Source of the DNA: Mangrovibacterium marinum
GTDB taxonomy: Bacteria; Bacteroidota; Bacteroidia; Bacteroidales; Prolixibacteraceae
DNA length: 64,000 nucleotides
Reading direction: 5' to 3'
Assembly: GCF_003046625.1 (NCBI RefSeq)
Contig: NZ_QAAD01000003.1
Location: forward strand, 248,001 to 312,000
The notes beneath the pieces were generated by a model. That model was not told the origin of the DNA, ran no database searches, and worked only from the letters and a program-made list of their open reading frames with translations. Below, in pieces: positions 1 through 20,528 of the stretch; position 1 is the stretch's first letter; every line of letters begins with the position of its first letter. The translations under genes and the position numbers were made by a program.

Positions 1-180
1 GCTGGTATCCGACAAATCCTGATCGACCACATAAATATCGACATTCTTCAGGTCGTAGGTGGCCGCAAATACCAGCACCAGCATCTGCACCAGGGGCAAC
101 ATGACAATCATTCGCAACATGGTTTTGTTCCGTCTGATTTGCGCAAATTCTTTTTGTAATATGTATTTGATCGTTTTCAT
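1..180 (-). CDS. ABC-2 type permease, N-terminal fragment (runs off the window)
   Basis: Reading the minus strand from the ATG at 178-180 gives an open frame of 60 codons to the window edge. It starts MKTIKYILQKEFAQIRRNKT, followed by a hydrophobic stretch and a loop of the type ...YVVDQDLSDTS. This is the N-terminus expected of a YbhR/YhhJ-like ABC-2 permease: a cytoplasmic basic start, the first membrane helix, then the large extracytoplasmic domain. It resembles the permease at 641-1747 (same KEF..I.R.R/N opening and the Y.QS/D-type loop). It would be the second permease half and the last visible gene of the efflux operon. The rest lies outside the window. Confidence 0.85.
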   Translation of the reverse strand, partial: MKTIKYILQKEFAQIRRNKTMLRMIVMLPLVQMLVLVFAATYDLKNVDIYVVDQDLSDTS

Positions 181-184
181 ATAG

Positions 185-640
185 AGCTACAAGTTTTTAG
201 CTGCAAGCTTCAAGTCGAAAAGACTTATTCGTTAGTTTTCAAACTTCGTAAAAGACCGGAAATCATTTTTTGTTCTTCCTGAACTTTATCGACCAATTCA
301 CCAAATTTATCATTCGAAAGAAACTCCAATTTATTGGCAATAATGAGTTGTGTTTCCAGCTCAAAGGCTGAACCCAGCGAAATATCCAGAAACCGACCAA
401 AGTCCTTATCTGAATTCCGCCCCGAACCTTCGGCAATATTTGATGGAACCGAAACCGCTGCTCGTCTCATTTGGCTCGTCAATCCATAGATTTCTTCCTT
501 CGGAAAGTCCTGAGAAGAATGATAAACGTCGACAACTACATCGATTCCGTGTTGCCAAACTTTTAGCTTTTTAAAATCTTTCATTATTTCAGTATTTAGG
601 TTTCAAATTTCTTGAAGCTTGAAGCGATCTACTTGCAGCT
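185..640. repeat. Inverted repeat enclosing a four-helix-bundle gene
   Basis: The left arm 185-214 and right arm 611-640 are reverse complements over 30 nt with about 24 matches. The best block is GCAAGCTTCAAG against CTTGAAGCTTG. The arms lie just outside the small gene at 225-584, and the right arm ends exactly where the flanking permease gene ends (stop at 641). The unit therefore looks like a gene bracketed by terminal inverted repeats and sitting between two permease genes of one operon. No target-site duplication is obvious. A transposition mechanism is not shown. Confidence 0.6.
225..584 (-). CDS. Four-helix bundle protein (23S rRNA IVS / S23-like family)
   Basis: A 119-residue protein with the hallmark pattern of the family: FKKLKVWQHGIDVVVDVY at the start, then FPKEEIYGLTSQMRRAAVS, SNIAEGSGR and a C-terminal helix rich in Glu/Lys. 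These proteins fold as four-helix bundles. They are known from intervening sequences in 23S rRNA genes and are related to the Avd accessory protein of diversity-generating retroelements. No enzymatic activity is established. It sits between two ABC-2 permease genes, in the same orientation, inside an inverted repeat (185-640). No reverse transcriptase is nearby, so an Avd role here is unlikely. It is one of three different members of this family in the window. Confidence 0.9.
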   Translation of the reverse strand: MKDFKKLKVWQHGIDVVVDVYHSSQDFPKEEIYGLTSQMRRAAVSVPSNIAEGSGRNSDKDFGRFLDISLGSAFELETQLIIANKLEFLSNDKFGELVDKVQEEQKMISGLLRSLKTNE

Positions 641-1747
641 TCACTCTAACCTCACCTTAAACTTCTTCACCGCAACCACCACAAAAAACGCAGTCATGCC
701 CAGTAACACCAACGTTTCTTTCCAGACGTAGGCCATGCCAACGCCTTTGAGCATGATGTTCCGAAGGATAATGATAAACCATTTGGGAGGCATAATATTG
801 GAGACAATTTGTAAGGGCAGTGGCATATTTTCGATGGAAAAAATGAAACCCGACAACAAGATTGTTGGCAACATCAACGCTATTACAGAGATAAACATGG
901 CCACCATCTGCGTTTTAGCCAATGACGAAATCATGATGCCCAAGCTAAGGGCCATGAGGATAAAAAGTATGCTTTCGCCCAACAACAACCCCCAACTCCC
1001 CTTGATTGGCACTCCAAAAACGAAATGTCCAATCCCCAAAATAACGAGGGCATTGATAAAAGATAAGACCAGATAGGGTGTCACTTTTCCCAGAATGATC
1101 TGGGACGGACGAAGCGGCGACACCAGCAGAATCTCCATGGTCCCGAGTTCTTTTTCGCGGGTGATGGAGATGGAAGTCATCATGGCGGAGATCAACATCA
1201 GAATCATCGCCATGATGCCTGGAACAAACATGTAAACCGACTTCAGGCCTTCGTTATAAACCATGCGGACTTCCGGCTCAATTTGCATCGGCAGGTGCAG
1301 GTTGCCCATTTGTTTGAAAATATAATCGTTGATGATTCCGGTGGTGTAGGTGGCCAACATTTTTCCGAGGTTCGGATCGGAGGCATCGGCAATGATCTGC
1401 ACATCGGCTTTTCCCTCGCGCTGCAGCTTCCGGCTAAAATCGCGTCCGAACACCAGCACTTCCTTTACCTTGCCTTGTTTAAAAATGGCTTCAATATCCG
1501 CCGTGCTCTCCAGATTCTGGTCGAGCAAAAAGTAACCGGACGACATCAGCTTGGTCGTGATCTCCTGCGTTACTTCATCTTTCGACTGGTCGTAGATGGC
1601 AATGCGCGCATCTTTAATCTCGTTGGTAATCACTGTTCCAAACAGCATAAGCTGAATGATCGGAATCCCAAACAGGATGATCATTGTCCGCCGGTCGCGA
1701 AAAATGTGAAAGAATTCTTTTTTGACAAAACCGAGAAAGCGATCCAT
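641..1747 (-). CDS. ABC-2 type transporter permease
   Basis: A 368-residue membrane protein of the YbhS/YbhR/YhhJ type. It has an N-terminal amphipathic/basic segment (MDRFLGFVKKEFFHIFRDRR), one transmembrane helix at about residues 23-43, and a large extracytoplasmic domain to about residue 170. A C-terminal block of five hydrophobic helices includes the family signature REKELGTMEILLVSPLRP at about 200-217. With the fragment at 1-180 it should form the heterodimeric channel powered by the ATPases at 2251 and 3433. The adaptor and TolC genes upstream indicate tripartite efflux across both membranes. It is the fifth core gene of the operon. A GxxExxY gene cassette separates it from the ATPase gene before it. 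Confidence 0.93.
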   Translation of the reverse strand: MDRFLGFVKKEFFHIFRDRRTMIILFGIPIIQLMLFGTVITNEIKDARIAIYDQSKDEVTQEITTKLMSSGYFLLDQNLESTADIEAIFKQGKVKEVLVFGRDFSRKLQREGKADVQIIADASDPNLGKMLATYTTGIINDYIFKQMGNLHLPMQIEPEVRMVYNEGLKSVYMFVPGIMAMILMLISAMMTSISITREKELGTMEILLVSPLRPSQIILGKVTPYLVLSFINALVILGIGHFVFGVPIKGSWGLLLGESILFILMALSLGIMISSLAKTQMVAMFISVIALMLPTILLSGFIFSIENMPLPLQIVSNIMPPKWFIIILRNIMLKGVGMAYVWKETLVLLGMTAFFVVVAVKKFKVRLE

Positions 1748-1766
1748 ATTCTATTTTATTTTTGCT

Positions 1767-2241
1767 AACCACAGAGTTACACTGAGTTTTTCACAGAGTA
1801 TCACAGAGCAGCTAATTAGCAAGTCTTTTTATTCCGTGTTTTAATGAAGCTACGTTGAAATTCAGCAATAAGCCAATTTTGCATCCGGACAGTTTCAAAT
1901 AAGTCAAAACCTGAGCAATATGAACGTCCGACAATGCTTCAACCGATTTGATTTCAACAACAACTTTGTTTTCAACAAGCAAATCAATTCGGTACCCAGC
2001 ATCTAATTTCACGTCTTTGTACACCAGGGGCAACGCTTTTTGCTTTTGAACCAAAAATCCTGATTGGATCAATTCATAAAATAAACATTCTTCGTAGGCA
2101 CTTTCCAACAACCCAGGCCCAAGCGCAGAATGGACGTTGTAAGCACACCTTAAAATTTGTTCTGTAATTTTATTAATTTCCATAATCTGTCGAATTTATT
2201 ATCTGTGAAACTCTGTGTTTTCCTCTGTGTCCTCTGTGGTT
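1767..2241. repeat. CACAGAG inverted repeats enclosing a GxxExxY gene
   Basis: The left arm 1767-1808 (opens AACCACAGAG, repeats CACAGAG) and the right arm 2203-2241 (closes CTCTGTGGTT) are inverted copies of the same short-period sequence. Both contain three to four CACAGAG-type units. The right arm read on the opposite strand matches a gene-less copy at 4487-4523 at about 35 of 37 positions. The gene 1812-2183 fills the space between the arms almost completely. Arrangement: operon gene, arm, nuclease-like gene, arm, operon gene. I treat this as a candidate mobile or selfish cassette. That status is inferred. Confidence 0.65.
1812..2183 (-). CDS. GxxExxY protein (PD-(D/E)XK nuclease-like)
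   Basis: 123 residues. The family-naming motif is visible as GLLESAY at about residues 24-30, within GPGLLESAYEECLFYEL. Downstream, RIDLLVENKVVVEIKS supplies an Asp followed by E-x-K, the layout of the PD-(D/E)XK nuclease superfamily to which this family is assigned. The protein is full-length for the family (about 120-130 aa). Its function is unknown; a DNA or RNA endonuclease activity would be an inference from the fold. It lies in the same direction between an ATPase and a permease gene of the efflux operon and is flanked by inverted CACAGAG repeats, so it is probably a passenger and not a transporter part. Confidence 0.88.
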   Translation of the reverse strand: MEINKITEQILRCAYNVHSALGPGLLESAYEECLFYELIQSGFLVQKQKALPLVYKDVKLDAGYRIDLLVENKVVVEIKSVEALSDVHIAQVLTYLKLSGCKIGLLLNFNVASLKHGIKRLAN

Positions 2242-2250
2242 AAAATTGGC

Positions 2251-3045
2251 TCAGTCGGTCCGTGTTGCCCCGCGTGCCAACTGCAAAAACACCCCATTCA
2301 TATCTTCCGAATTGAATTGCTTTTTCAGGACATCGGGAGTGTCGAGGGCGGCGATGCGGCCATCCACCATAATGGAAACCCGGTCACAGTATTCCGCCTC
2401 ATCCATGTAGTGTGTGGTCACAAAGATGGTCTTCCCCTCGGCAGCAGCTTCGTAGATAAAATCCCAAAACTGGCGGCGGGTAATCGGGTCAACACCGCCC
2501 GTTGGCTCGTCCAGAAATACGATTTGCGGATCATGCAACAATGCGATCAAGAAAGAAAGTTTTTGCCTCCATCCCAACGGTAACGATGCAATCAGCTTAT
2601 CACGTTCGGGCTCCAGACCAAGCTTCTTCAGCATCCGGTCTTCCTTTTCCTTCCGCTGCTGACGCGACAACCCGTAAATACCGGCGTAAAAGCGAATATT
2701 CTCGGCAATCGTCAGATCCTCGTACAACGAAAACTTCTGGCTCATGTAACCAATATTCCGTTTGATCAATTCAGCCTGTTTGTACACGTCGTAACCACCG
2801 ACTGTGAGTTCACCGGAGGTTGGGCTGCTCAAACCGCAAAGTATCCGCATGGCGGTGGTTTTCCCGGCACCATTCGCTCCAAGGAAACCAAAAATCTCCC
2901 CTTTGTAAACCTCGAAAGTCAGGTGGTCATTAGCAACAAAGTGCCCGAATTTCTTGACGAGATTTTTGACTGATATGACAGTTTGCAAGTGTTCAGTCAC
3001 AGTCGCGGTGTTCAGTGCGCTCGTATCAGTTTTATCCTCTTTCAT
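2251..3045 (-). CDS. ABC transporter ATP-binding protein (efflux, second ATPase)
   Basis: A 264-residue nucleotide-binding protein. Walker A is GANGAGKTTAMRIL (about residue 56-69), the Q-loop is YMSQKFSLYEDLT, Walker B is IVFLDEPTGGVD and the switch His is in VTTHYMDEAE. The signature motif is degenerate: LPLGWRQK replaces the usual LSGGxxQ. A signature of this kind also occurs in the C-terminal ATPase half of YbhF/YhiH-type exporters, so it fits the second subunit of an ATPase pair. The start overlaps the stop of the preceding four-helix-bundle gene by an ATGA-type overlap, which implies translational coupling. Partners are the ATPase at 3433 and the permeases at 641 and 1. Confidence 0.93.
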   Translation of the reverse strand: MKEDKTDTSALNTATVTEHLQTVISVKNLVKKFGHFVANDHLTFEVYKGEIFGFLGANGAGKTTAMRILCGLSSPTSGELTVGGYDVYKQAELIKRNIGYMSQKFSLYEDLTIAENIRFYAGIYGLSRQQRKEKEDRMLKKLGLEPERDKLIASLPLGWRQKLSFLIALLHDPQIVFLDEPTGGVDPITRRQFWDFIYEAAAEGKTIFVTTHYMDEAEYCDRVSIMVDGRIAALDTPDVLKKQFNSEDMNGVFLQLARGATRTD

Positions 3046-3419
3046 GATTCTTTTTCGTTACAACCAAATTTGCCCGGGTGTTGAATCATGTAATTGATTA
3101 GCCTGCCAACTTCCTTGGTTTCATCAAACATTTCCTCGTGCTGCTTAGCTGAAATATAGTCGCATGCCAATGCGAAATCTAACCAAACAGCCGTTTCACT
3201 ATTCTCTCCATCGGAATCCGTCAACTTGCTAATAAAGTGTCTCACATATATTCTTTTCCTGTAGGCTTCAGCAATGTTGGCACAAACAGACCGCGACGAT
3301 CTCCGAACCTGGTCAGTTAGCGAATAGGTTTCTTCTTTCGGGAATCGTTTCGAAAGTTGAAATATCTGCATCGATAAACTGAACGCTTTTTGATATGCCA
3401 ATAACTCTTTAAAATCCAT
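3042..3419 (-). CDS. Four-helix bundle protein (IVS/S23-like), second copy
   Basis: A 125-residue relative of the 225-584 protein but clearly a different subfamily. It begins MDFKELLAYQKAFSLSMQIF and contains FPKEETYSLTDQVRRSSRS and ANIAEAYRKR, the family core. The function is unknown. It lies between the two ATPase genes, which in related exporters are fused into a single protein or immediately adjacent. Its stop overlaps the ATG of the next ATPase by 4 nt, and its start lies 13 nt after the previous stop. The upstream side carries the 6-bp GAGACT array (3457-3561). No second repeat arm can be recognised downstream, because the gene runs straight into the next one. Confidence 0.9.
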   Translation of the reverse strand: MDFKELLAYQKAFSLSMQIFQLSKRFPKEETYSLTDQVRRSSRSVCANIAEAYRKRIYVRHFISKLTDSDGENSETAVWLDFALACDYISAKQHEEMFDETKEVGRLINYMIQHPGKFGCNEKES

Positions 3420-3432
3420 AACGATTTATTTT

Positions 3433-4473
3433 TTATCCGTTTCTACTGCGTCCCCTCTGAGACTGAGACTGAGACTGAGACTGAGACTGAGACTGTGACT
3501 GAGACTGTGACCGCGACTGAGACTGAGACTGAGACTGAGACTGAGACTGCGACCGCGACTGTACACTTTCACTCTCCCCCATCAGTGCCATAAACACATC
3601 CTCGATTCCGGCTTTGATGAATGAAGATCGCACCTGCTGATGATTGAGTTTTTCGAGATGTGCTTTTACTTCGTCCGGTTGAAGCTGATTGTTCGACGGC
3701 GTGATGTGCACAAACTGACCAAAGGCGTAGGCTGTTTCCACTTGATCCCATTGGCGCAAATCCTGAATCAGCCGGTGCATCTCGTGGGAGCGGGCAGCCA
3801 AAAGCGGGCGATCGTAGTCGTTGACGATTTGTTCCGGCGAATTAATGCTGAGAATATCCCCTTTTTGCATCAAGGCAACACGGTCGCACAAACCAGCCTC
3901 GTCCATATAAGGCGTCGAGACCAAAATGGTAATTCCTTGCTCTTGTAATTTTTTCAGCATCTCCCAGAATTCCTTCCGCGAAACAGCATCCACGCCGGTT
4001 GTTGGCTCGTCGAGCACCAAAATCCCGGGCTTGTGAATCAACGCGCAAGACAGGGCTAGCTTTTGCTTCATCCCTCCGGACAGTCTTCCCGCTAACCGAT
4101 CTTTGAAAGGCTCGATTTGCACATAAATATCGCGGATGAGTTCGTAGTTTTCTTCAATCGTCGTTCCGAAGACCGTTGCGAAAAACGACAAGTTTTCTTC
4201 TACGGTCAAGTCCTGATACAACGAGAAACGTCCCGGCATATAACCCACAATCCGACGAATCTTCCGGTAATCTTTCACCACATCCAGGCCGCTCATCCAA
4301 GCTTGCCCGCCATCCGGCAAAAGCAAAGTCATCAAAATGCGCATCAAGCTGGTTTTGCCAGCGCCATCCGGACCAATCAAGCCAAACAACTCGCCTTTTT
4401 CCACCGAAAAAGAAATGTCCTTCAGGGCCTGAACGTCGTTGTATGATTTCGATATGTTTTCAACTTTAATCAT
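3433..4473 (-). CDS. ABC transporter ATP-binding protein with a Ser-Gln repeat tail
   Basis: A 346-residue protein. It has a canonical nucleotide-binding domain: Walker A GPDGAGKTSLMRIL (about 35-48), signature RLSGGMKQKLAL, Walker B GILVLDEPTTGVD and H-loop position STPYMDEA (Pro-Tyr where His is usual). A C-terminal YbhF-type extension ends near residue 305. After this comes an abnormal tail of about 40 residues made almost only of alternating Ser and Gln/Arg, encoded by the tandem hexamer array at 3457-3561. The tail is absent from normal family members, so it is most likely an intergenic repeat read through in frame. It is the first ATPase of the efflux operon. Confidence 0.92.
   Translation of the reverse strand: MIKVENISKSYNDVQALKDISFSVEKGELFGLIGPDGAGKTSLMRILMTLLLPDGGQAWMSGLDVVKDYRKIRRIVGYMPGRFSLYQDLTVEENLSFFATVFGTTIEENYELIRDIYVQIEPFKDRLAGRLSGGMKQKLALSCALIHKPGILVLDEPTTGVDAVSRKEFWEMLKKLQEQGITILVSTPYMDEAGLCDRVALMQKGDILSINSPEQIVNDYDRPLLAARSHEMHRLIQDLRQWDQVETAYAFGQFVHITPSNNQLQPDEVKAHLEKLNHQQVRSSFIKAGIEDVFMALMGESESVQSRSQSQSQSQSQSQSRSQSQSQSQSQSQSQSQSQRGRSRNG
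3457..3561. repeat. Tandem hexamer array (GAGACT) inside an ABC ATPase 3' end
   Basis: About 17 units of GAGACT with variants TGTGACT and CGCGACT. Because the unit is 6 bp the array stays in frame on the minus strand and encodes (Ser-Gln)n. A short gene-less relative occurs at 44801-44813. The array abuts the four-helix-bundle gene at 3042-3419. Confidence 0.9.
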
Positions 4474-4486
4474 CGTTTAACTATTT

Positions 4487-4523
4487 AACCACAGAGGACA
4501 CAGAGAAAATCACAGAGTTTCAC
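4487..4523. repeat. Solo copy of the CACAGAG repeat, with an adjacent 18-20 bp duplication
   Basis: A gene-less copy of the repeat that borders the GxxExxY gene. It begins AACCACAGAGGACACAGAG and matches the reverse complement of 2203-2241 at about 35 of 37 positions. It lies between the ATPase and adaptor genes of the same operon. Immediately downstream (about 4530-4567) a second, unrelated imperfect direct duplication of GTTCAATNGTAAATT is visible. Confidence 0.8.
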
Positions 4524-4579
4524 GGTGAGCGTTCAATGGTAAATTGTAAATCGTTCAATTGTAAATTACACAACACTGA

Positions 4580-5461
4580 TCACTCAAAATTCACTTCTCC
4601 CGGCATGCCGATTTTCAGGCGGCCATCGTTCTTCACTTTTACTTTGACGGCATAAACCATCTTCACCCGTTCTTCTTTGGTTTGAATGATTTTGGGCGTG
4701 AACTCGGCCTCCGCGGAAATCCAGTCCACCACTCCCGTCAGGTGTTGATTCGTTTTTTTGTCTTCATCGATTAATACCTGCACCTGCTGTCCCAATTTCA
4801 CATGCGGCAGTTGCGCTCCGCTAACATACACCCGAAGGTCCAGCTCCGAAAGATCGGCCAGCTTTACCAGGGCTTTCGAGGGAGCTGCCAACTCGCCCAG
4901 TTCGGTATATTTCTCCAGAATGGTTCCCGTTACCGGGCTTGTAATCACCGATTTTTCCAGCTGATTTTCGGCTGATGCGATCTGTGCCTGCAGTACCGCG
5001 AGCTCGCTGTTAATTGCAGCAAATTGGGTTTGCTGACTTAAAACCTGCTGCCCGAGCACCCGCACCTGGCCGTCGATATCGTCGACCTGCTGTTGCGTTG
5101 CCGCTTTATCGGCAAACAATTTATGCACCCGGTTCTGGCTGATCTTTGCATTTTTCAACTGCTGCTGTAACACATCAATTTCAGCCCGAAGGTTGACTTT
5201 TTTAACAGCCACTGCTTCCACCTGGGCCTGCAATTGTTCAATCTGCAGTTTTACCGTGCTGCTATCGATAACGGCCAGCACATCGCCCTGCTTCACCTGG
5301 CGACCTTCTTCTCCTTCAAAACGCACCAGTTTTCCGGAAATTTCTGAAGAAACAATGGTCTCGTCGGCCTCGAAGTTTCCGTAAGCATCAGATGTTTCGT
5401 CGCCATTTTTGCAGGCTGATGCCAGCACAACGAGCAAGAGTAAAAGATAAATTCGATTCAT
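4580..5461 (-). CDS. HlyD-family periplasmic adaptor (efflux), lipoprotein
   Basis: 293 residues. It starts with a lipoprotein signal (MNRIYLLLLLVVLASAC, Cys about 17), so it is probably anchored by lipid to the periplasmic face of the inner membrane. A biotinyl-lipoyl-like half-motif (GKLVRFEGEEGRQVKQGDVLAVID) is followed by a long coiled-coil hairpin at about 70-170 (LQAQVEAV, LQQQLKNA, LAVLQAQIASAENQL). The second lipoyl half is SPVTGTILEKYTELGELAAP, and a beta-barrel domain ends in KIGMPGEVNFE. This is the membrane-fusion component that links the ABC-2 permeases to the TolC homologue encoded 15 bp upstream. The substrate cannot be deduced; YbhG/YhiI-type systems export drugs or toxic metabolites. 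Confidence 0.92.
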   Translation of the reverse strand: MNRIYLLLLLVVLASACKNGDETSDAYGNFEADETIVSSEISGKLVRFEGEEGRQVKQGDVLAVIDSSTVKLQIEQLQAQVEAVAVKKVNLRAEIDVLQQQLKNAKISQNRVHKLFADKAATQQQVDDIDGQVRVLGQQVLSQQTQFAAINSELAVLQAQIASAENQLEKSVITSPVTGTILEKYTELGELAAPSKALVKLADLSELDLRVYVSGAQLPHVKLGQQVQVLIDEDKKTNQHLTGVVDWISAEAEFTPKIIQTKEERVKMVYAVKVKVKNDGRLKIGMPGEVNFE

Positions 5462-5476
5462 AGTTATGTGTGTATT

Positions 5477-6739
5477 TTATTGTCCGAGTAAATTCTGATA
5501 AGTAATTTTTGCTGCTTCCAGCTGCACTTTGTGTGTTTCAAAAGTGATCCGGGCTGCCAGCTCTGCATTCAAGTCCTGCAAATAATCTGCTGTTGTAATT
5601 GTTCCGTTTTCAAGCTTTGAGGCCGAACTTTTCGCGATGCGTTCCTGCAGTCCGATCAGCTCCCGGTCACTTTTTAGTATTTGTTGTAATTGCTCTATTT
5701 TCCGGCTTTGGCCGTCCAAGGCAATTGTAATATTGCGTTCGAATTGCGCTTGCTCGGTTTGCACCATTTCCTGCTGCAGTTGGATAACCTCTTTGCTGCG
5801 CTTGGTTTGTTTCCAGTCAAAAGGCGTCCAGCTCAGGCCGAGGCCAACCTGGTAATAGGTATCAAAACTATCATTCAGCATATTTAAGGCAGGTCGCCCG
5901 TAGCCCGCCTGACCGAAACCAAACAACTTCGGGTTACGCGCTTTCTGTGTCAAGTCGGCCGACGCGCTCAATAAATCAGCCTGTTGGCGAAACAAATCCA
6001 TTTCCGGACGCACGATTTCCGTATCCGTCCCAATTTCAGAAGTTCCGATTTCGAGATTCTGCAAATCGGAGGGCTCTTTTCCCGTGAGGATTGCCAGTGC
6101 TGCCAATGTTGTTTCCCGGCTGGTTTGTAACTCCAACTGTTGCTGAGCCACCTTGATCAACTCCGCCAAAACCTGGTCTAAATCAGATTGAAGGATTGCC
6201 CCATTAGCGAGAGCGCTTTCCATTTGCAGTTTCCGGGCCTCAAGCGTCTCCTGCTTTTTGCCCAGCAGATCGAGGTTTTGCTGAATCAGGAAACAAGAAA
6301 AAAACAAATCATCCACTTGCTTTCTCACCTGGTACAAACTGACCTCAACGCCCTGCTGGTCGGCCAGATTTTGTGCTTCCTCAACATTTTCGCGTGCTTT
6401 GGATATGCCGCCGTCCCATATATTTTGCTTCACATCCAGGTAGGCTTTGTATTGATCCTTTGAAACCGTCGGAATATCAACAGCCGGCAACGAAATTCCA
6501 ATATGTGTGACATCGGATTGATAACTGGCCTGTGCATTAACCCCCAGCTGCGGCAACCACGCAGTTTTAATGTTGTCCAATTTCAAGGAACTCATCTTCT
6601 GGTACAGTTCTTTTTGTTTGAGCAACGGATGCACATCGCGCGCCCACTCCTGGCAATCTGACAGGCTTACCTCCTGCTGCGCAAAAAGCAACTGAGCAGG
6701 CAGTAACAACAGCATGATTAAACTAATTCTGGTCTTCAT
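5477..6739 (-). CDS. TolC-family outer membrane efflux protein
   Basis: 420 residues with a signal peptide (MKTRISLIMLLLLPAQLLFAQQ). Two OEP-type repeats contain long helices rich in Gln/Glu/Leu and a barrel segment (LFGFGQAGYGRPALNM, YYQVGLGLSWTPFDW). The C-terminus is helical (TADYLQDLNAELAARITFETHKVQLE), as in all TolC-like proteins. It forms the outer membrane exit duct of the tripartite exporter. It is placed between the TetR gene (10 bp away) and the adaptor gene (15 bp away), so these are clearly cotranscribed. Confidence 0.94.
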   Translation of the reverse strand: MKTRISLIMLLLLPAQLLFAQQEVSLSDCQEWARDVHPLLKQKELYQKMSSLKLDNIKTAWLPQLGVNAQASYQSDVTHIGISLPAVDIPTVSKDQYKAYLDVKQNIWDGGISKARENVEEAQNLADQQGVEVSLYQVRKQVDDLFFSCFLIQQNLDLLGKKQETLEARKLQMESALANGAILQSDLDQVLAELIKVAQQQLELQTSRETTLAALAILTGKEPSDLQNLEIGTSEIGTDTEIVRPEMDLFRQQADLLSASADLTQKARNPKLFGFGQAGYGRPALNMLNDSFDTYYQVGLGLSWTPFDWKQTKRSKEVIQLQQEMVQTEQAQFERNITIALDGQSRKIEQLQQILKSDRELIGLQERIAKSSASKLENGTITTADYLQDLNAELAARITFETHKVQLEAAKITYQNLLGQ

Positions 6740-6748
6740 AAATTCGGA

Positions 6749-7360
6749 TTATTCGGGTTGAATAGCTTTCAATACAAACGATTTGACTTCATCTTTGCGC
6801 TCAGCCAGAAACTGTTTCAAAGCTTTATCGTCACCTTTAAAAGCAACATGGTTGATTATCGGACGAACAGCGAATGGAAAAACACACAGTGCAATAATAT
6901 TCACCATCAGATGCTCGGGTTTCATGGGCCTGATTTCGCCCCGGTCCATGGCTTCCTGCAACATCCGCTTTATCGGATCGACGGAAAAACCGGAGCGTTC
7001 GATGAAGCTAAAAAAGGGAGTCGCATCACGATTCACTTCTTTAACAATAAACGCCGGCAAGAACGGATATTTTATCAGCAAGTCGAGATAAGTGCCTACG
7101 GCCTGTTCCAGCTTTTCTGAAAAAGGCAGTTCCGAAAATATGATTTGCCCAATCCGCGGAAAAGCAATGCCGATGAGCTTTGTAAAAATGGCATCGAATA
7201 ACTTTTCCTTACTTCTGAAATAATAGTGAAGCAATGCTTTATTGATTCCTGCCCGGTCTGCAATCTCCTGCATGCGGGCGCCATCCATCCCTTTCTGAAC
7301 AAACACGTCCGTAGCCGCATCAATAATCTTGTCCTCCGTATTGTCTTTTTTAACTTCCAT
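6749..7360 (-). CDS. TetR/AcrR family repressor of the efflux operon
   Basis: 203 residues. The N-terminal TetR DNA-binding domain has the helix-turn-helix RMQEIADRAGINKALLHYYFRSKEKLFDAIF at about 30-60, with the typical Y-F/K-L signature. The C-terminal part is all-helical and is the presumed ligand-binding and dimerisation domain. It is the first gene of the operon and is followed after 10 bp by the TolC gene. Two matching palindromes with TTTAACCA/TGGTTAAA half-sites flank a candidate promoter immediately upstream (7373-7466). This argues for autorepression and ligand-induced efflux. The inducer is unknown. Confidence 0.93.
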   Translation of the reverse strand: MEVKKDNTEDKIIDAATDVFVQKGMDGARMQEIADRAGINKALLHYYFRSKEKLFDAIFTKLIGIAFPRIGQIIFSELPFSEKLEQAVGTYLDLLIKYPFLPAFIVKEVNRDATPFFSFIERSGFSVDPIKRMLQEAMDRGEIRPMKPEHLMVNIIALCVFPFAVRPIINHVAFKGDDKALKQFLAERKDEVKSFVLKAIQPE

Positions 7361-7372
7361 TTTTCTATTTGG

Positions 7373-7390
7373 TTTAACTACTTGGTTAAA
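7373..7390. promoter_or_regulatory. Candidate TetR operator O2
   Basis: TTTAACTA-CT-TGGTTAAA, an imperfect palindrome (7 of 8 arm positions) that matches the half-site of the perfect palindrome at 7443-7466. It lies 13 bp upstream of the tetR start, over the likely transcription start. Confidence 0.65.
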
Positions 7391-7397
7391 ACTGCTG

Positions 7398-7428
7398 CAA
7401 ACCTAAAACATTTCGAAATACAAGTCAA
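7398..7428 (-). promoter_or_regulatory. Candidate Bacteroidota-type promoter of the efflux operon
   Basis: On the minus strand, TAGGTTTG (complement of 7398-7405) matches the Bacteroidota -7 consensus TAnnTTTG. About 20 bp upstream there is a TTG (complement of 7426-7428) at the -33 position. It sits exactly between the two TTTAACCA palindromes. Confidence 0.55.
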
Positions 7429-7442
7429 TAGTTTTGACCAAA

Positions 7443-7466
7443 AAATTTAACCAGGTGGTTAAATTT
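7443..7466. promoter_or_regulatory. Candidate TetR operator O1 (perfect palindrome)
   Basis: Arms AAATTTAACCA and TGGTTAAATTT (11 bp each, perfect) separated by GG. It lies just upstream of the -33 element of the tetR promoter. The length and symmetry are typical for TetR-family operators, and the same half-sites recur at 7373-7390. Confidence 0.7.
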
Positions 7467-7625
7467 CGATTTAAAGTACCCGACAAGCATGAATTCGAAA
7501 GGCAATCAAGCCGTCATTCACCTTGAAAAAGGAAATTAAAAGTAAAAAGCGCAAGAAATACAGCAAAGGGGAACCAAATACTCCATCTCTATTTCTATTT
7601 TTAGCGCGCTTAAAGTACACATGGA

Positions 7626-9317
7626 ATGAAACTTCACCTAAAAATCTCGCTATTATTACTTTCGTTTGCTGCTGTTCTAATCATTTCGTTCACCTCCATC
7701 ACCTACGTTAACCGTGCGGTACAAGATGTTTTCATGAAGGAGAATGAACGCAACCAGGCTCAGATCATCGACAAAGTTATTGCGATTAAATTCGGTTCCC
7801 TCAAGCAAATTGTCGACGACAATTCAGCTTGGGACGAGTTGATCGAATACACGCACAAGCCCGATTCCGTTTGGGCGATTGACAACATCGATTTCATGGT
7901 CAATGTCTTCAACCACTCAACCGTTATGGTTTTTAACCAAGATGACGAGCTTATTCACCAGTTTTCAGATTCGAGCCTCATTGGTTCGTATTATCAGCCA
8001 GACAAGACGGCGATAAAAAACATATTTGCACAATCGGCCTATTGCCACTACTTTCAATATTCAGGCAATCAACTGATTGAGTTTTACGGAGCCACGATTG
8101 TCCCGTCAGCTGATGCAACCGAACGAAAAACCGAACCACAAGGTTATCTGCTGGTCGGTGAAGAATGGGATGAGGCGTACCTGAACAATCTTTACGAATC
8201 GACCGGATTTGACACAGAACTCATTGCGACAACCGACTCTTCACCGATCGAACTCGATCGAGAGCGCGAGTGCATCATAAAGGAGCTCCACGGTGCTAAT
8301 GGAAAAACAGTTGCCAAAGTTGTTTTCAGCCGGGTGAGCCCCATTCAACGGGACCTAAATAACTTTCTCCTCCTGACCCTATTGATCTCCTTCATTGCGT
8401 TATTGGCACTTATTGTCTTCATCCTTTATTTCCGCCGGATTTTAGTTGAACCATTCTCAATAATTAACCGCACACTCGAAACAAACAACCAACGATTCCT
8501 GGATAGACTTCGGTCGAAAACGCCGGAATTTGTTAAGCTGAAAGAACTTATTCTCAACTTTTTCAAACAGCAGGAAGAGCTAAAATCCAACAATGCCCGA
8601 CTGCTCGAATTAAATGGCACAAAGGATAAACTTTTCTCCATTATCGGGCACGACTTGCGTAATCCAATCGGAAATATTTTATCCGCGTCCGGCATCATGA
8701 TTGAATCAATTCAAGAGCAAGATTCTGAAAACATCGAAATCCTTTTGAGTTTAATCGAAAAAGAAAGCGGCGAGGCTTTAAATTTACTGGAAACGCTTCT
8801 AGATTGGGCTAAAACACAAACCGGCAAACTACAGTATTCACCGAAACGAGTCCATTTAAAAGAGATTATTGATCGGGTATCAACCAATTTAAGCTTTTCG
8901 GCCCGCATGAAAGAAATCAAGATTGAAACGGTGGGCAATGTTGATTTTGAAGTTTACGCCGATTACAACATGATTGTAACGATTCTTCGCAATCTGATTT
9001 CGAATGCCATAAAATTTACAAACCCGGGAGGCTGGATCCGAATTTCGGCATTGAGAAATGAAAACGAAATCGAATTCCAGGTTGAGGATAATGGCATCGG
9101 AATGGACGTTAAAGCTGCTGGTAGACTATTTAAAGCCGAAACGAATTATTCGACTTACGGAACCGCCAATGAAAAAGGAACCGGGTTAGGCTTGATAATT
9201 TGTAAAGAGTTTATCGAAAAGCACGGCGGAAGCATCCGTGTTGAAAGCGAAAAAGGGAAAGGGTCCTGTTTTATTTTCAACATCGTGGAAAAGAAAATCA
9301 GCCAACAAGAACAGTAA
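7626..9317 (+). CDS. CHASE4-domain sensor histidine kinase (orphan)
   Basis: 563 residues. One transmembrane helix lies near the N-terminus (about 7-27). An extracytoplasmic CHASE4-like domain follows, with the Asn/Trp/Asp-rich pattern DDNSAWDELIEYTH and DNIDFMVNVFNHSTVMVF. The second membrane helix is at about 243-265. A linker coil leads to HisKA with H-box FSIIGHDLRNPIGNI (phospho-His about 340). The ATPase domain has N-box LRNLISNAIKFTN, G1 VEDNGIGMD and G2 GTGLGLIICKEF. It has no receiver domain and no adjacent response regulator, so its partner is elsewhere. It is transcribed away from the efflux operon with about 265 bp between them. The signal is unknown. Confidence 0.92.
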   Translation: MKLHLKISLLLLSFAAVLIISFTSITYVNRAVQDVFMKENERNQAQIIDKVIAIKFGSLKQIVDDNSAWDELIEYTHKPDSVWAIDNIDFMVNVFNHSTVMVFNQDDELIHQFSDSSLIGSYYQPDKTAIKNIFAQSAYCHYFQYSGNQLIEFYGATIVPSADATERKTEPQGYLLVGEEWDEAYLNNLYESTGFDTELIATTDSSPIELDRERECIIKELHGANGKTVAKVVFSRVSPIQRDLNNFLLLTLLISFIALLALIVFILYFRRILVEPFSIINRTLETNNQRFLDRLRSKTPEFVKLKELILNFFKQQEELKSNNARLLELNGTKDKLFSIIGHDLRNPIGNILSASGIMIESIQEQDSENIEILLSLIEKESGEALNLLETLLDWAKTQTGKLQYSPKRVHLKEIIDRVSTNLSFSARMKEIKIETVGNVDFEVYADYNMIVTILRNLISNAIKFTNPGGWIRISALRNENEIEFQVEDNGIGMDVKAAGRLFKAETNYSTYGTANEKGTGLGLIICKEFIEKHGGSIRVESEKGKGSCFIFNIVEKKISQQEQ

Positions 9318-20062: not shown

Positions 20063-20070
20063 GAGAAGTG

Positions 20071-20520
20071 GAAAGGCAAAAGTAAAAAGGCAAAAAACAA
20101 GGATCAACTTATGGAAAGAGATTTGATGGAAAGGCTTTTCAATTTTGCAGTACAAGTAATCAAATTTTTGCGCGAAATTCCTTCAACTCAAGAAAATCGA
20201 GTTATTCGCTACCAACTGACGAGATCAGCTACTTCATCAGGAGCCAACTACGAAGAATCGCAAGCTGGTAGCTCTAAAGCTGATTTCATCTTTAAAGTTG
20301 AGATCAGTCTCCGGGAAATGCGTGAAAGCAACTATTGGCTGCGGATTATAAAAGCTACTCACTTGGTCAACGATGTTCCGTCGGATCAATTGGATTTTTT
20401 GGTGAATGAATCTGAAGAATTAAAAAAGATATTGGCATCAATCATTAAGAAATCAAAGGACCAATGAGCTCCTCTCATTTTTGACCTTTGACTTTTGACT
20501 TTTGACTTTTAACTTGTAAC
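20071..20520. repeat. Inverted short-repeat arrays flanking a four-helix-bundle gene
   Basis: The left array 20071-20098 (GGCAAAAGTAAAAAGGCAAAA) and the right array 20478-20514 (TTTTGACTTTTGACTTTTGAC) are degenerate complements built from a 7-8 bp unit, AAAAGTC/GGC on one side and its complement on the other. They enclose the gene 20111-20467 and fill the space between yicC and gmk. Gene-less relatives occur at 38214-38320 and 40297-40372. Confidence 0.65.
20111..20467 (+). CDS. Four-helix bundle protein (IVS/S23-like), third copy
   Basis: A 118-residue member of the TIGR02436-like group. It starts MERDLMERLFNFAVQVIKFL, with the core VIRYQLTRSATSSGANYEESQAGSSKADFIFKVEISLREMRESNYWLRII and a Lys-rich C-terminus. 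It belongs to a third subfamily, distinct from 225-584 and 3042-3419. The function is unknown. It lies 48 bp after yicC and 61 bp before gmk, in the same direction, and interrupts a conserved housekeeping operon without breaking its transcription direction. It is bordered by the inverted arrays described at 20071-20520. Confidence 0.9.
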   Translation: MERDLMERLFNFAVQVIKFLREIPSTQENRVIRYQLTRSATSSGANYEESQAGSSKADFIFKVEISLREMRESNYWLRIIKATHLVNDVPSDQLDFLVNESEELKKILASIIKKSKDQ

Positions 20521-20528
20521 TCCGAATT

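Follow-up and report, generated by a model that had tools for sequence, protein, structure and literature searches.

The four-helix-bundle (FHB) gene at the beginning of the window, i.e., the whole 64,000-nt stretch of Mangrovibacterium marinum DNA analyzed here, is probably part of a small mobile element, one of the IVS/S23 lineage, whose insertion sites are the junctions separating protein genes and whose unit consists of a repeat array, the FHB gene, and a complementary array. To our knowledge, genes annotated as "four helix bundle protein" occur widely, and no function has been assigned to them. Their bracketing across several phyla, together with the clade-specific repeats that form the brackets, suggests a small mobile element that is widespread and has apparently escaped description. 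No account of repeat arms around FHB genes was found in the open-access literature; the name "23S rRNA IVP" occurs in a figure legend of one paper on CRISPR-linked genes. The initial annotation, which had described the locus as a bracketed cassette, is confirmed in its observation, and its interpretation is supported and extended.

The focal FHB gene (225–584, minus strand) encodes 119 residues and lies between two ABC permease genes of the same strand, an ABC-2 permease gene upstream of the cassette (641–1747) and the start of the next permease gene (1–180). The gene and its arms take up the entire 460-nt junction (181–640, minus strand), which measures only 3–26 nt in 11 uninterrupted relatives. 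The arm downstream of the gene (185–214) is built of the units GCTTGAAG, GCTGCAAG, and GTAGCT, and the inverted arm upstream of it occupies positions 611–640. Both are 30 nt long with a spacing of 396 nt, and the proposed inverse match of about 24 of 30 positions was reproduced exactly (80% complementarity). The left arm starts 5 nt past the start codon of the next permease gene, and the last base of the right arm (640) directly adjoins the permease stop codon (TCA on the plus strand, 641–643), as had been noted. The term "terminal inverted repeat" is not entirely apt: the arms are inverted, but they do not constitute one unique 30-mer, since they are diverged short-period tandem arrays. The protein scores 136 bits against PF05635 (cut-off 33.8) and 129 bits against TIGR02436 (cut-off 24), in keeping with the IVS/S23-like family first assigned to it, and its closest solved structure is the pentameric Xcc0516 (2GSC, E 4e-22).

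Arm strength was scored as the best inverted match between the 150 nt upstream and the 150 nt downstream of a gene, with a threshold of at least 25; as a control, the upstream flank of one locus was paired with the downstream flank of another. The focal pair reaches a score of 30, against a maximum of 25 among 200 shuffles, and 99% of the mismatched flank pairs lie at or below 32. By itself, therefore, this pair is only moderately significant. Several of the individual arm pairs in this genome are weak in the shuffle test; the argument rests on class statistics. Across about 30 genomes of the family, 121 FHB genes have a median score of 30, compared with 16 for both mismatched flank pairs and shuffles. 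Inverted arms reach the threshold at 91 of these 121 genes, whereas arms in direct orientation do so at 14. Among control genes flanked on each side by an intergenic stretch of 50–500 nt, only 4 of 78 reach it, against 75 of 87 FHB genes called by the same procedure. A multi-phylum GTDB set of 78 loci, picked by similarity to the window protein, consists mostly of Bacteroidota and also holds records labelled Caldilineaceae, Planctomycetales, Nitrospirae, Syntrophus, Thiobacillus, Acidobacteria, and more; here, 54 loci reach the threshold and 74% exceed the 95% level of mismatched pairs (i.e., about 70–74%). Inverted arms are thus a class property of FHB genes far beyond chance, although detectable arms are missing at about a quarter of the loci.

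The arms are tandem arrays rather than single palindromes, mostly with a period of 7 nt, and their unit, termed flavour here, differs from locus to locus. In strong arms, the autocorrelation peaks at 7 nt (0.545) and again at 14 and 21 nt, with a smaller peak at 8 nt. Flavour is tied to the gene. Where FHB proteins encoded at non-orthologous sites are more than 60% identical, their genes have arms of the same flavour, with a mean similarity of 0.51 over 17 pairs, against a permutation maximum of 0.36 (0 of 5000 permutations reach the observed value); a few of the 17 pairs come from the same genome region, so not all are independent. The FHB clade and the arm flavour are coupled even at unrelated sites. 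Furthermore, when orthologous sites are compared, the match between left and right arm is better within a locus than across loci in 44 of 54 pairs (Wilcoxon p 3e-7). The p-value is optimistic because the loci were pre-selected for arms and the pairs share loci, but the direction is clear.

The own genome (G000; other G numbers denote compared genomes and L numbers loci), in which the window lies on contig C3, contains 12 PF05635 genes. Nearly all of them are intergenic and bracketed by complementary short-period repeats, with a unit differing per gene: GCTTCAAG at the focal cassette, and GTCATT, GGATTGAT, CTTTTGA, GGATTGAA, CAGTC, and others elsewhere. A second FHB gene of 125 aa (3042–3419, minus strand; PF05635 and bAvd-like) lies in the same operon as the focal one. 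Its one arm, of CAGTC flavour (2984–3030), is inside the following ATPase gene, at its start, and the other, (CAGTCT)n (3528–3571), is inside the part of the upstream ABC gene that encodes an SQSQSQ tail. In this ABC gene (3433–4473), the long SQSQSQ tail is the arm array read in frame into protein. A third FHB gene of 118 aa (20111–20467, plus strand) is inserted between yicC and gmk, with an upstream arm of GGCAAAAGT units (20066–20094) and a downstream arm of TTTTGACTTTTGAC (20487–20515). The same bracket style is found around a gene for a GxxExxY protein (1812–2183, minus strand; PF13366, PD-(D/E)XK), another family without a function known to us, whose downstream arm (1766–1807) consists of CACAGAG units and whose upstream arm (2202–2242) reads CTCTGTG on the plus strand. 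About half of 26 GxxExxY genes are bracketed, often by CACAGAG/CACAAAG-type arms, and the number of GxxExxY genes correlates with that of FHB genes across genomes (rho 0.76). The GxxExxY cassette (1766–2242), located between ATPase and permease genes, is present in G000 and G003; in G001 and G002, gene-less CAGTC-type repeats occupy the site instead.

The focal permease junction is readable in 28 loci. Besides the 11 genomes with an uninterrupted junction, an FHB cassette with GCTT/AGCT-type arms is present in G000, G002, G025, and G013, and the junction is filled differently in others. In G033, the FHB gene is frameshifted, belongs to a different subfamily, and has GTTCGGAGTG-type arms; a gene-less hairpin of this flavour is found in G041, a genome of the same genus. 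Only a short CAGTC-type hairpin is found in G003, while in G001 (L016) a short GAAGCCGCAAG arm remnant is followed by a CCCCGAAGGGGTT palindrome and CACGGAG/CACAGAG-type repeats. The arms are therefore not permease coding ends of uninterrupted relatives, which would have refuted the initial annotation; the empty sites and the arms at homologues support its self-contained cassette in a protein operon. Similarly, the yicC–gmk junction contains cassettes in G000 (window 20063–20528), G001, G025, and G032, and is clean (5–39 nt) in a number of other genomes. At L152 and L158, a nucleotidyltransferase and HEPN-like gene pair, identified by eye, is inserted in this junction, with no obvious arms. 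Since these comparisons were run between species, gain and loss cannot be separated, and the empty relatives are too diverged at the junctions to define a target-site duplication.

Duplication of the cassette as a unit is seen in G020, in which two cassettes at unrelated sites, one in the ABC operon and one after alr, are homologous across arms and gene, with homology fading outside the arms (dS 0.57 and dN 0.04 for the genes). On the favoured reading, the arms belong to the unit. Comparison gives good support for mobility of the cassette as one piece, but no transposition has been observed, and the mechanism and the role of the protein remain inferences. As the copies are diverged, present activity is uncertain.

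It is also conceivable, if unlikely, that short-period repeats of the host form hairpins first and that such arrays, already in place, then receive FHB genes by insertion or by recombination. Indeed, the pattern AGTCGCAGTCGCAGT, with one mismatch allowed, has 127 matches in the own genome, whereas the reversed pattern has 0. CAGTCG hexamer arrays occur at many of its loci (e.g., G000:C12:12898–13386, L298), one array reaching about 0.5 kb, and at the dispersed CAGTC array loci examined no gene brackets were found, all being solo arrays. At the position after alr that holds the CAGTC cassette in G020, a CAGTC array lacking the gene is present in about 10 congeners, and a precedent is offered by IS1272, which is reported to replace inverted repeats (PMC5678879). 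Solo arrays may be the remains of cassettes, or arrays may have preceded cassettes; this keeps an origin from pre-existing hairpins in play. Against it, flavour tracks the FHB clade at unrelated sites, most empty junctions contain no array, and the closest G020 congeners with readable alr junctions include clean empty ones. The 3' end of alr (L245–L264) also displays gene-less hairpins of CAGTC, GTCATT, and GTTACGG flavours, with rapid turnover between species of one genus.

A second explanation, to which we attach equally little weight, acts at the RNA level: as in rRNA intervening sequences (IVSs), the arms on either side of the gene would pair with each other within the polycistronic mRNA, RNase III would cut the stem or the stem would protect the insert, and the arms would stay complementary through selection acting on this stem in the RNA. 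Folding of the cassette RNA, a check raised by the initial annotation, does pair the arms across the gene (z −3.19). There is also a precedent in Coxiella, whose IVS is a 428-nt element with an S23 ORF that is excised by RNase III (PMC4990558). The upstream arms contain 11% C and 28% G and are purine-rich in 63 of 80 cases; being C-poor, left arms cannot fold on themselves but can pair with the right arm. FHB genes are mostly in sense orientation, co-directional with both neighbors in 100 of 118 tabulated loci, yet 6 of the 118 are antisense to both. Moreover, selection in the sense transcript should give an excess of G-U-type over A-C-type mismatches, whereas 80 and 83, respectively, were counted in 2724 aligned arm positions. 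In the absence of such an excess, no selection for arm pairing is detected in the sense transcript.

It is improbable that the FHB gene is an ordinary accessory gene of the operon whose flanking hairpins are terminators or regulators, with no mobility involved. The gene is under strong purifying selection, as this explanation would have it (dN/dS 0.056 between the focal gene and its G002 ortholog, with an overall range of 0.04–0.15), and the yicC–gmk cassette is kept in four genomes of three genera. However, the junctions are empty, decayed, or differently filled in relatives, a duplicate resides at an unrelated site, and the host operons are unrelated. Random similarity in AT-rich intergenic DNA, with which only the moderate significance of the single focal pair would agree, can be set aside almost entirely, being refuted at the family level by the orientation, mismatched-pair, and control-gene tests.

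The mobile-element reading can be compared with several known systems. As far as we know, the origin and spread of rRNA IVSs have been unclear. IVSs with an S23/S23p ORF in Leptospira and Coxiella resemble the cassette in protein family, size, and sporadic presence or absence (PMC4990558), and the focal cassette shares with them an ORF bordered by complementary arms capable of forming a stem. However, IVSs sit in 23S rRNA and the cassette between protein genes: the focal copy is flanked by ABC permease genes, and no Rfam match was found in positions 1–8000 of the window or in 20 arm-poor homologous loci. It further differs by its 12 diverse copies in one genome and by arms made of diverged tandem arrays of about 7 nt with clade-specific flavour. 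The cassette is related to rRNA IVSs and appears to work like them but, by location, is not one.

The relationship to Avd of diversity-generating retroelements, also suggested at the outset, is borne out by PHROG 3206 (E 8e-7). The focal protein is below the threshold of the bAvd Pfam model, which the second FHB protein exceeds; with the Avd equivalog model of NCBIfam at E 0.001, the focal protein is unmatched and the second one scores 36.8 against a cut-off of 80. No reverse transcriptase gene is adjacent, the hits in the own genome being on contigs C11 and C39. Across genomes, FHB and reverse transcriptase counts are unrelated, and 7 genomes with at least 5 FHB genes have no reverse transcriptase. 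A reverse transcriptase as a trans-acting motor was thus rejected, given the lack of a count correlation and its absence from several FHB-rich genomes; the cassette does not need one.

REP/REPIN elements with their RAYT genes occur in these genomes too and are likewise small, inverted, and intergenic, and the Y1_Tnp count correlates with the FHB count (rho 0.66, against 0.49 for genome size). Nevertheless, RAYT/REP identity was rejected because the end structures differ and because G018 has 9 FHB genes and no detected Y1_Tnp. Many Y1_Tnp genes lie between compact palindromes (such as GGTGCAGCGCACC), whereas cassettes are flanked by non-palindromic tandem arrays, and short palindromic REP units are absent from the ends of the focal cassette. 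Among the Y1_Tnp (RAYT-like) genes at L311–L330, many have compact REP palindromes, with several families per genome. Unlike an insertion sequence, the cassette encodes no transposase, the 460-nt insert having room for the FHB gene only. For three FHB proteins, a PADLOC-DB search gave no match, and a role in anti-phage defence was rejected on this basis.

Foldback elements have inverted termini built of short tandem repeats. The eukaryotic foldback transposons (e.g., Tetris, PMC4079207) offer an analogy only, since the cassette is bacterial, about 0.45 kb long, and carries an unrelated coding gene. In Beggiatoaceae, TAACTGA heptanucleotide repeats occur in tandem between genes, as the heptads of the cassette arms do, but they are direct, of a single sequence, upstream of start codons, and not reported to bracket an FHB gene (PMC4679880).

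For the proposed mobile element, with its inverted array of about 7-nt repeats, FHB gene, and complementary array, the following course may be envisaged. In a single-stranded form, either DNA during copying or RNA, the arms would pair as a long stem, and copying or correction across this stem might preserve complementarity while the flavour drifts. The Avd-like FHB protein probably acts on the arms or on a folded intermediate, and its binding to the folded form could promote insertion or maintenance; this role in mobility is inferred because no recombinase is encoded. Gene-less hairpins or single arrays would be the decay products. Several features make the cassette tolerable to operons: its small size, its limits falling between a stop and a start codon, a reading direction that is usually that of the operon, and host genes left intact.

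As a more tentative and broader possibility, which we hold to be rather less than probable, transposase-less mobile elements of this kind may span phyla, their ends being, instead of a fixed sequence, a self-renewing pair of inverted short-repeat arrays and their FHB protein (in parallel, a GxxExxY nuclease-like protein) recognizing its own flavour, with rRNA IVSs as a special case that landed in rRNA. The concerted evolution of arm pairs raises a concrete question of mechanism, namely how copying proceeds across a hairpin. If most FHB genes serve an inverted-array element, whether as its cargo or as its drivers, the family gains a testable biology; this would also explain part of the intergenic repeat litter of Bacteroidota and place rRNA IVSs within a larger class of mobile elements living in protein operons.
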